NCBI GenBank assembly: GCA_023662905.1
Contig: JAMPIJ010000001.1
Location: forward strand, 1 to 49,810
DNA: 49,810 nucleotides
Direction of reading: 5' to 3'
Source: Fusobacterium sp.
GTDB lineage: Bacteria > Cyanobacteriota > Vampirovibrionia > Gastranaerophilales > Gastranaerophilaceae
Program-made: the position numbers and the translations under genes
Shown here: in pieces, positions 23,577-48,791 of the stretch
Numbering within the stretch: position 1 is the stretch's first letter
How the letters are laid out: each line of letters begins with the position of its first letter
Notes under the pieces: model-generated
The model's database searches: none
The model's input: only the letters and a program-made list of their open reading frames with translations
What the model was told of the DNA's origin: nothing

Positions 23577-23628
23577 TCCCCCACATCTATTAGAATTAAA
23601 ATATCACAGTTACCCTATGGAGTTTATT

Positions 23629-23928
23629 ATGTTAATGAGTCACGATTGCAACAGAAATAATAGAATTGAACTTAAAAACGTCGACAAAGACATAGTTTTC
23701 TGGCTTGAAGATATTATTGACGAAAACAACGGACGCATCGAGCGCAAAGAATGGAAAAGCAAGTACAACAGCTATGTCGTTTACGATTACGAACCTTTCT
23801 GCACGGAGGGGTTTGAAATAAACATCGTCGTAACGTCCTTTGACGACGCATATTTAAAATTCATAAAATACCTCTATGATGAAAAAATAAATACAATAGA
23901 GTTTCTCAATAATTGCATAAACGCATGA
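23629..23928 (+). CDS. Hypothetical protein, 99 residues
   Basis: This small acidic, probably globular protein begins MLMSHDCNRNNRIELKNVDK. The start at 23629 is chosen since GGAG lies six bases upstream; an ATG 12 bases earlier overlaps that site. It contains alternating strand-like segments (NSYVVYDYEPF, GFEINIVVTSF) and a C-terminal helix. No family recognised. It is a single-gene unit followed by a GC-rich hairpin. Confidence 0.65.
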   Translation: MLMSHDCNRNNRIELKNVDKDIVFWLEDIIDENNGRIERKEWKSKYNSYVVYDYEPFCTEGFEINIVVTSFDDAYLKFIKYLYDEKINTIEFLNNCINA

Positions 23929-39295: not shown

Positions 39296-39324
39296 ATTAT
39301 GTAGTATTTTTAATAACTTGTCAA
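39296..39324 (-). promoter_or_regulatory. PL-E promoter
   Basis: Minus strand TTGACA, 17 bases, CATAAT. The whole element is identical to the PL-G promoter at 47388..47416, including several flanking bases on both sides. Confidence 0.85.
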
Positions 39325-45494: not shown

Positions 45495-45526
45495 AACTAT
45501 TGAATTATAATAAATCGCTTAACATC

Positions 45527-45565
45527 TTGCAACCTGTTGCAAAAAGTTCACAATTAGATTAAAAT
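45527..45565 (+). promoter_or_regulatory. Promoter with a short palindrome over the -35 box
   Basis: TTGCAA (45537..45542), 17 bases, TAAAAT (45560..45565). The palindrome TTGCAAC-CT-GTTGCAA overlaps the -35 box, which could be an operator for the downstream secreted protein gene. Confidence 0.6.
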
Positions 45566-45591
45566 GGGAACGTAAAAGAGAGGGGATAATG

Positions 45592-46275: not shown

Positions 46276-46306
46276 AAAAAAGAGAGCCATAAGGCTCTCT
46301 TTTTTT
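46276..46306. terminator. Bidirectional terminator between convergent genes
   Basis: AAAAAAGAGAGCC, ATAA, GGCTCTCTTTTTTT lies between the secreted protein gene and convergent PL-G; U tracts flank both sides. Confidence 0.88.
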
Positions 46307-47309
46307 ATCGCTTAACGCATTGAACCGTAGTTTCAAGAGAACGGAAATGAACCAATCTGCCACCAGTAAACATCCCCTGTGTCCAACCGTGAGTCGAGTC
46401 ATAAATAGTCGCTGACCAATAATTCGTTGCAGAACCACTTGCCATCGCACCGTTAATTAACCTTTGGTTTACAAACATTGAGGCCAGTTCATCTCTTGTA
46501 GGAATACGAAACTCAGGATCTTGCTCCTTACAAATCTCCATCGCACGTTGCTGCGTAGCACTTGTTGAGGCTTTTTGCGGCGGAATATTCGGAGCAACAA
46601 CAGAACTGTCCGTAGGATACAAAACAGTTATAAACCCGATATCTTTACCTACGGTATTAGGCCCTTTATTTCCGTTCAAGTCAAAAACAAAGTTTGCACA
46701 AATTTTAGGCTGTACGCTATGGTTTCCAGTTTCCCCCATTTCAGCTTTGCAATACGGATTGTAAAACGCAATAATACTTTCTCCGTTAGCAGTCTCAAAC
46801 GCAGCAGCTTTAGTGTTAAGCTGACTATGAGCCGGGCCCGCAGTCCCATCGTGGAAAATCATTTTAGGATTCAATTCTTCCATAGTAGTCGGTACAGTAA
46901 TTTGAGTTCCTGTAATCGCTGTAATTCTTGACGCAACCCCGCAATCAGTAATATGCTCGCTATCGCAAATGTTGTTAATTTTTAAAACTTTAGCCAAACC
47001 GCTGGTGACAAAAGTTTCGGTTGCGGTATCAACAGCGGAAGTTGATTCGTCGCCGGCCGTCAGAGTTCCGTAGCCATTAAGAGCCGGCATAAGCGCGATT
47101 GCCTGACTAAAGCGCGCATAAAGTGCTTTTCTTTGCGTGTTCCAAGTGCGTTCGTTAATGTTGCCTGTCAAACTTGGCAGCGTAATCGCAGCGACCACGC
47201 CGATAATTGTGAGGGATAAAAGTATTTCGGCCATTGTGAAGCCGCGGCTGATGACCTGCTCAGCAGTCCCCCCCCCCCCTGCATTAGTTAATACTTTTCG
47301 TTTGTTCAT
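46305..47309 (-). CDS. PL-G: phase-variable pilin-like protein (phase ON, 12 G)
   Basis: This 334-residue protein is readable from ATG 47309: leader MNKRKVLTNA, four glycines (G12), TAEQVISRG, cleavage site G23/F24 and the conserved stalk. The body has LAKVLKINNICD, six cysteines, DLNGNKGPNTVGKDIGF, and the tail FRIPTRDELASMF ... NYWSAT ... VQCVKR. The 5' UTR contains a GC-rich hairpin (around 47350..47375) not seen in other copies. Its promoter faces the manC promoter. Confidence 0.9.
   Translation of the reverse strand: MNKRKVLTNAGGGGTAEQVISRGFTMAEILLSLTIIGVVAAITLPSLTGNINERTWNTQRKALYARFSQAIALMPALNGYGTLTAGDESTSAVDTATETFVTSGLAKVLKINNICDSEHITDCGVASRITAITGTQITVPTTMEELNPKMIFHDGTAGPAHSQLNTKAAAFETANGESIIAFYNPYCKAEMGETGNHSVQPKICANFVFDLNGNKGPNTVGKDIGFITVLYPTDSSVVAPNIPPQKASTSATQQRAMEICKEQDPEFRIPTRDELASMFVNQRLINGAMASGSATNYWSATIYDSTHGWTQGMFTGGRLVHFRSLETTVQCVKR
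47268..47279 (-). repeat. Poly-G tract of PL-G, 12 bases
   Basis: Twelve consecutive C on the plus strand; four glycine codons, frame ON. Confidence 0.95.
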
Positions 47310-47387
47310 AATAATAAATCCTTTCTTGGCGTCTTGCCATTATCTAATTAGGAAACCGCCTTGACCGGCGGTCCTTTCTATAAACTT

Positions 47388-47416
47388 ATTATGTAGTATT
47401 TTTAATAACTTGTCAA
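47388..47416 (-). promoter_or_regulatory. PL-G promoter
   Basis: Minus strand TTGACA, 17 bases, CATAAT, identical to the PL-E promoter. The -35 box overlaps the -35 box of the manC promoter on the other strand. Confidence 0.85.
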
Positions 47417-47446
47417 TATTTCTATTTTATCCTAAAATAGAAATAT
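47410..47446 (+). promoter_or_regulatory. manC promoter with a 14-bp palindrome
   Basis: TTGTCA (47410..47415), 17 bases, TAAAAT (47433..47438). A perfect inverted repeat, ATATTTCTATTTTA (47416..47429) and TAAAATAGAAATAT (47433..47446), covers the spacer and -10 box and is a likely operator. Confidence 0.7.
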
Positions 47447-47468
47447 CAGTTTTCAAGGAGAGTTTTTA

Positions 47469-48791
47469 ATGAAAGCAATTATTCTCGCAGGCGGTTCCGG
47501 AACTAGACTCTGGCCAATATCACGCAAACAGTATCCTAAACAATTACTAAAAATTGAAAGCGATATGAGCCTTTTGCAGTCAACATTCAAACGTGCGCTT
47601 GAATTTACAACAGCACAAAACATTGTTTCTATCACGAACACAGAACAGGCCGGCGATGTTCGCTTACAGCTTAACGCAATAGAGAGCGGAAGTACCGTAC
47701 TTTCAGAACAGGAAAGCAAAAACACTGCACCTGCAATTCTTTCAGCGTTAAAACACCTTGAAGAAAACACCAGCGACGAAGAAATTATTGTAATTCTTCC
47801 GTGCGACCACTTAATCAAAAATATAGCAGATTTCACAACGAGTATAAAATCCGCTGAAACTTTAGCAAAACACGGATATCTTGTAACTTTTGGCGTTAAA
47901 CCGTCTTATGCAGAAACAGGTTACGGATATATTCAATCAGGCGACAAACTTGATAACGGGTTCAAAGTTAAGAAATTTGTCGAGAAACCGGAAGAAACAA
48001 CCGCCGAAGAATTCTTGAAAACTCCTAATTTCTACTGGAACAGCGGAATCTTTATGGGCAAACTTTCAACGTTCAAAAACGAGTTTAGAAAATACGCTCC
48101 ACAAATCGATGGTGAAATTTCATTTGATTATGCAGTTTTAGAAAAATCCGATAACATCGCACTTGTTGAACTCAAATCTGATTGGGTTGATGTCGGCTCA
48201 TGGCAATCGCTCTACAGCGTTAACGCTAAGGATGAAAACAACAATGTCATCACAGGTAACGTAATCACAAACGACGTTAAAAACTCATTCATCTATAGTT
48301 CAAAAGAACTTATCGCGGTTTCAGGTCTGGAAAACATTATCCTTGTTGAAACCGAAGACGCAATAATGGCTTGTAGAAAAGACCGTGCGCAGGATGTAAA
48401 AGTTCTGCACGATAAATTAAAAGAAAAAGCCAGCGAAACTGTTGAACTTCACAAAACAGTTTTCCGTCCTTGGGGTTACTATACCTGCCTGAACAGAGGC
48501 GATGGATACCAAACCAAAATGATTTGTGTTCACCCTGGGCAAAAGCTTTCAATCCAATCACACAACTACCGTTCAGAACACTGGGTTGTGCTTGAGGGAA
48601 CAGCGTGCGTAATCCTTGACGACGTAACACACACCCTTGAAGCAGGAAACAGTATTGATATTCCTGTAAAAGCAATTCACTCGTTGCAAAACCCTTACGA
48701 AACAGATTTAAAAATCATAGAAGTTCAAAAAGGGGAAATTCTTTTGGAATCTGATATTATCCGTTATCAGGACATGTATAACAGAGTTTAA
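47469..48791 (+). CDS. manC: Mannose-1-phosphate guanylyltransferase / mannose-6-phosphate isomerase
   Basis: This 440-residue protein has a nucleotidyltransferase domain starting AIILAGGSGTRLWPISRKQYPKQ and the FVEKPE motif, and a C-terminal cupin-like type II isomerase domain (RPWGYYTCL, KLSIQSHNYRSEHWVVLEG, VPVKAIHSLQN). It makes GDP-mannose for surface polysaccharides. It is a little shorter than the usual 460-480 residues. AAGGAG precedes the ATG. It fits with the LCP protein in wall-polymer synthesis. Confidence 0.95.
   Translation: MKAIILAGGSGTRLWPISRKQYPKQLLKIESDMSLLQSTFKRALEFTTAQNIVSITNTEQAGDVRLQLNAIESGSTVLSEQESKNTAPAILSALKHLEENTSDEEIIVILPCDHLIKNIADFTTSIKSAETLAKHGYLVTFGVKPSYAETGYGYIQSGDKLDNGFKVKKFVEKPEETTAEEFLKTPNFYWNSGIFMGKLSTFKNEFRKYAPQIDGEISFDYAVLEKSDNIALVELKSDWVDVGSWQSLYSVNAKDENNNVITGNVITNDVKNSFIYSSKELIAVSGLENIILVETEDAIMACRKDRAQDVKVLHDKLKEKASETVELHKTVFRPWGYYTCLNRGDGYQTKMICVHPGQKLSIQSHNYRSEHWVVLEGTACVILDDVTHTLEAGNSIDIPVKAIHSLQNPYETDLKIIEVQKGEILLESDIIRYQDMYNRV

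Follow-up and report, generated by a model that had tools for sequence, protein, structure and literature searches.

The region upstream of manC in an uncultured gut relative of the Cyanobacteria probably holds a clade-specific manC promoter with an operator-like dyad of its own; next to it is a pilin cassette of a dispersed type, with a -35 element that coincides with that of manC. The source is a metagenome-assembled genome from the Gastranaerophilales (1.74 Mb in 54 contigs, designated G000), and positions refer to the window, i.e. the whole stretch of 49,810 nucleotides that was analysed. The features concerned are as follows.

46305 to 47309, minus strand: PL-G, a prepilin-type protein of 334 aa with a predicted C-type-lectin-like (Lcl_C-like) C-terminal domain
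47268 to 47279, minus strand: 12-G homopolymer tract in the PL-G leader, which reads in frame here
47388 to 47393, minus strand: PL-G -10 element CATAAT, inside the family motif TACATAAT and invariant in the stereotyped pilin promoter
47388 to 47416, minus strand: PL-G promoter TTGACAAGTTATTAAAAATACTACATAAT, an exact copy of TTGAC-N16-TACATAAT; an identical 29-mer lies at 39296-39324
47409 to 47497, plus strand: 89-bp run identical in G000 and the sister genome G006 (60 nt noncoding and 29 nt of manC)
47410 to 47416, both strands: TTGTCAA, the overlapping -35 elements (manC, plus, 47410-47415; PL-G, minus, 47416-47411)
47416 to 47446, no strand: perfect inverted repeat ATATTTCTATTTTA-TCC-TAAAATAGAAATAT (arms 47416-47429 and 47433-47446, 3-nt centre), a candidate operator
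47433 to 47438, plus strand: manC -10 element TAAAAT, 17 nt past the -35 and 30 nt ahead of the ATG
47455 to 47462, plus strand: ribosome-binding site of manC, AAGGAGAG, which is conserved across six members of the genus
47469 to 48791, plus strand: manC, bifunctional mannose-1-phosphate guanylyltransferase/mannose-6-phosphate isomerase, 440 aa

The product of manC matches the profile TIGR01479 at 471 bits (cut-off 373). The N-terminus of PL-G is that of a prepilin, with a match to TIGR02532 above the cut-off, and its C-terminal domain matches Lcl_C weakly, below the cut-off. In a predicted structure with a mean pLDDT of 74, residues 197-311 are nearest to the C-terminal domain of Legionella Lcl (8q4e; Z 10.4, rmsd 2.0 over 90 residues), the next structural neighbours being other C-type-lectin-like folds, and such a fold is predicted for the C-terminal domain (window 46308-47240, minus strand).

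Both genes are preceded by predicted sigma-70-type promoters, which rank among the three best of the 14 sigma-70 matches that a scan of 3.8 kb gave (mean of the shuffles, 7.6). That of manC consists of TTGTCA (47410-47415), a 17-nt spacer and TAAAAT (47433-47438) on the plus strand and scores 10/12; that of PL-G consists of TTGACA (47416-47411), a 17-nt spacer and CATAAT (47393-47388) on the minus strand and scores 11/12. As an earlier sequence-only reading had noted, TTGTCAA carries both -35 elements on opposite strands, with an overlap of 5 bp between the hexamers; the -10 elements (47388-47393 and 47433-47438) do not overlap. That reading placed the promoters face-to-face, but transcription of the two genes diverges from the centre, so that they stand back-to-back, with transcripts expected to start near 47445 (plus strand, manC) and 47381 (minus strand, PL-G), approximately 64 bp apart. 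Overlapping divergent sigma-70 promoters with overlapping core elements form a classical class. The manC/PL-G pair resembles this class in that two sigma-70-type promoters on opposite strands point apart into two genes and overlap in their -35 elements, and is a further example of a known, ordinary promoter arrangement; it differs in that one of the two promoters is of the dispersed pilin type and neither gene encodes a regulator. Mutual exclusion of opposing RNA polymerases at this site is sterically reasonable and plausible, but unproven. In the related bidirectional promoters of Warman et al., a near-symmetric core element engages polymerase on either strand and binding is mutually exclusive, so that two opposing polymerases are unable to bind simultaneously (PMC12825309; PMC10268837); competition in these pseudo-symmetric promoters is slight at basal activity and strong once one direction has been strengthened (PMC12825309). 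Such promoters have a common -10 element and starts 7-25 bp apart (PMC10268837), whereas manC and PL-G have the -35 in common and would start transcription about 64 bp apart.

The promoter of PL-G belongs to a dispersed type with many copies. In G000 the motif TTGAC-N16-TACATAAT occurs 53 times exactly and 86 times at up to one mismatch, compared with 5 matches for the reversed control and 2 when N17 takes the place of N16. Allowing one mismatch, the motif has 57-92 copies in five of the other six members of the genus and 8 in G005, and among the other relatives searched there is at most one exact match per genome; within the genomes searched, the promoter type is confined to the genus. Across the 54 copies read the spacer was also found to be constrained (AAAcATGnTACATAAT), and upstream conservation was essentially nil past the two bases next to the -35. 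Homologues of PL-G at E <= 1e-60 number 112 in G000, 83-118 in five genus members and 4 in G005. The family, of about 100 pilin-like genes, is present in six of the seven genus members searched; the number of its genes may be off, since contig ends at pilin leaders and poly-G tracts indicate that the assemblies break at this family. Indeed, many G000 contigs (e.g. C4, C9, C10, C28, C37, C42 and C47) stop just past a pilin promoter, at the leader or the poly-G tract. Within the window, pilin genes lie near 107(-), 12301(+), 20487(-), 31041(-), 39194(-), 43783(-), 47231(-) and 49790(-).

Most pilin copies with downstream sequence run from promoter to ATG to a poly-G tract, mostly of 11-13 residues, and the stereotyped promoter would appear to drive about 100 dispersed pilin-like genes, most of them with such tracts. 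Where the copies could be read as far as the prepilin motif (n=31), 15 were in frame and 16 out of frame. PL-G itself has the long homopolymer in its 5' coding sequence that is expected of a poly-G phase-variable gene, both frame states being found among its paralogues, and the family is likely to be phase-variable by means of poly-G on/off tracts. Our literature searches gave nothing specific on pilin phase variation in this group and no description of the approximately 100-member family.

Given this abundance, the overlap at manC is less unusual than it may seem. Because the heptamer TTGACAA is all but identical to its reverse complement, TTGTCAA, any pilin promoter starting with the former gives a 5/6 -35 element on the other strand; 8 of the 54 copies start in this way and thus have TTGTCA on the opposite strand. 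An opposite promoter-like match of at least 9/12 sharing the pilin -35 was found at five of the 54, and a match of 10/12 only at PL-G/manC. With about 100 pilin cassettes in 1.74 Mb, a single coincidence of this kind is unsurprising.

The perfect 14-bp inverted repeat that had been described over the manC spacer and -10 is indeed there. It extends over 31 bp (47416-47446) and spans the spacer, the -10 and the expected +1 of manC; arms of at least 14 nt were seen in 0 of 20,000 dinucleotide shuffles of 47383-47468. The window has nine perfect repeats with arms of at least 11 nt, and this one, at 87%, has the highest A+T content; most of the others resemble terminators, a function rejected for the dyad on account of this same composition. 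It was likewise rejected as a dispersed or viral element, viral contigs giving no exact match, and as a described RNA, there being no Rfam match at the site and, by the expected starts, transcription of it in neither direction. The palindrome had been taken to be common to both promoters; however, seen from PL-G it occupies DNA ahead of the core promoter (at about -36 to -66) and has a single base, 47416, in common with the PL-G -35. On sequence grounds it belongs to the manC promoter alone and not to the pair. A beyond-chance dyad over the spacer and -10 is what is looked for in a palindromic operator. The face-to-face operator-promoter of Escherichia coli bioA/bioB also has a dyad overlapping promoter cores between divergently arranged genes, as at manC/PL-G, from which it differs in orientation, the promoters here being back-to-back and the dyad covering one of the two only.

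Attribution of the dyad to manC, rather than to the other overlapping promoter, follows from the sister genome G006, in which that other gene is lacking. The G006 ManC protein is 93% identical, and the promoter does not differ in a single letter between CTTGTCAA and the ATG, TTGTCAA and the palindrome included; PL-G is absent and no pilin takes its place there, window positions 46288-47401 corresponding to 18 bp. The link between a GDP-mannose gene and a pilin that the sequence-only reading had drawn is therefore not borne out. The 60 noncoding promoter bases are 100% identical between the two genomes, as against 92 of 166 four-fold sites in manC (55%), so that the manC promoter is under constraint. 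The 89-bp run is the fourth-longest identical run in the 28.9 kb aligned with G006, the longest (23628-23780) being within a reading frame of 103 aa. This constraint is not attributable to the dyad alone, because the promoter region at 45501-45565 is equally conserved in the same alignment. The intergenic region there (45495-45588), divergent between a TPR gene and the gene at 45589, includes 65 consecutive bp that are the same in G006, with a repeat of the form TTGCAA...TTGCAA, and is perhaps another regulatory site.

An alternative origin for the dyad is inverted duplication by template switching, in which the -10 arm TAAAATAGAAATAT was copied backwards into the spacer, leaving a trace that is not an operator and persists because the whole promoter is conserved. 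In keeping with this, the right arm holds the genus-wide -10 motif TAAAATAG, which precedes manC in each of the six pilin-rich members of the genus, whereas no genome other than G000 and G006 has the left arm upstream of manC. The genome search proposed with the sequence-only reading returned a single occurrence: even when 3 of the 28 positions may mismatch, G000 has no second copy, nor is there one at any other pilin promoter. The dyad core is also rare in the family (8 of 383 genomes, about equal to the reversed control). Promoter spacers usually drift freely, however, whereas here not one of the 31 bp has changed, the 3-nt centre included, although neutral identity is 55%, and we consider template switching conceivable, if unlikely.

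The more distant genus members differ. Conservation of the palindrome in relatives, which the sequence-only reading had set as a test of itself, gives a split outcome: it holds for the one sister species G006 and fails in G001-G004, where the manC -10 (TTATTGTAAAATAG) is kept, the dyad is absent and the best -35 is 3/6 at 15-19 nt, as against 5/6 in G000 and G006. In L032, a near manC relative, the contig starts at codon 2 of manC, and the promoter site was not found elsewhere in that genome. A pilin gene is also located divergently upstream of manC in G001, G002 and G003, 52-67 bp separating the pilin GTCAA end from the manC -10, compared with 16 bp in G000, and overlap of the pilin and manC -35 boxes is found in G000 only. 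The presence of a pilin beside manC across species may reflect old linkage or repeated insertion, both being possible. In G001-G003 the genes past this pilin vary between species. More generally, gene order around manC varies by species (G000, G001-G004 and G006), manC being flanked by pilins on either side in G000, G002 and G003, and this suggests rearrangement between dispersed pilin repeats. The best relatives of PL-G in other species are at varied places, one of them adjoining manC in G002.

These comparisons also raise the question of where the manC -35 came from. A pilin promoter beside manC may have supplied, in reverse, the missing -35 TTGTCAA, which G006 kept when it later lost the pilin. 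In G001-G004, manC has the same -10 with a -35 of at most 3/6 at 15-19 nt, and 12 bp on the manC promoter strand are identical to AATATTGACAAG in another pilin promoter (39324); on the other hand TTGTCAA is short, and the reverse order of events, with a pilin inserted at a pre-existing TTGTCAA, fits the same data. We regard such capture as rather unlikely; it concerns the origin of the promoter and is compatible with the explanation that we prefer. The wider notion that repeated contingency-gene cassettes provide the genes around them with movable promoter parts, a dispersed phase-variable pilin cassette having given a reversed -35 to the housekeeping gene manC, which kept it after pilin loss in the sister species, is offered tentatively and must be thought doubtful.

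In a selected switch, a regulator bound at the dyad would shut manC and free the -35 for PL-G, coupling the supply of surface-polysaccharide precursor to pilin expression. The exact overlap of the -35 boxes, the position of the dyad, fit to block manC yet just upstream of PL-G, and the fact that four of the six pilin-rich members of the genus have a divergent pilin upstream of manC are all in its favour. Nevertheless, G006 retains the dyad and TTGTCAA without the pilin, the dyad is absent from G001-G004, including three genomes with a pilin beside manC, and the overlap is found in G000 only, which together make a selected switch distinctly improbable. The shared regulator once suggested fares no better, since the palindrome occurs once in the genome (up to 3 mismatches) and the PL-G promoter type 86 times (up to one mismatch).

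Our preferred explanation is that manC and PL-G are transcribed as independent units that come together at a single -35 motif. For manC, transcription would be from the sigma-70-type promoter TTGTCA-N17-TAAAAT, with the 31-bp perfect dyad extending over its spacer, -10 and start; most likely the dyad serves as operator to a dimeric manC regulator that, when bound, would exclude RNA polymerase. The PL-G unit would be one copy of the stereotyped pilin promoter, its TTGACAA having come to coincide with the TTGTCAA of manC either by insertion in the G000 lineage or, if the pilin was already present, with its loss in the sister lineage. Only one polymerase at a time could presumably use the common -35, and hence mild competition between manC and PL-G may exist. 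We see no sign in these sequences that selection has coupled the synthesis of GDP-mannose to the expression of the pilin at this site. Two points weigh against this explanation. The divergent pilin-manC arrangement of G001-G003 could be an old and useful pairing, though the -35 boxes are far apart there. The operator reading has against it the lack of a second dyad site in G000 and of a cognate regulator; at up to 2 mismatches the dyad core occurs 5 times in G000 versus 3 in the control, with no recurrence at other targets. Recurrence of an operator at further targets of its regulator is typical, but is not required of a local regulator. Downstream of manC, a gene for a small helix-turn-helix-like protein is found in G006 (C56 5929-6249, L147) and G002 (L151 12723-13046); it is a possible regulator, but the dyad is absent in G002.

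This locus is a worked case of how a sister genome lacking one gene shows to which promoter of an overlapping pair a conserved dyad belongs. As a discovery the pilin family is the larger, approximately 100 genes found genus-wide that would be governed by one rigid promoter and, for the most part, by poly-G on/off tracts, and whose single modelled member is predicted to be lectin-headed.
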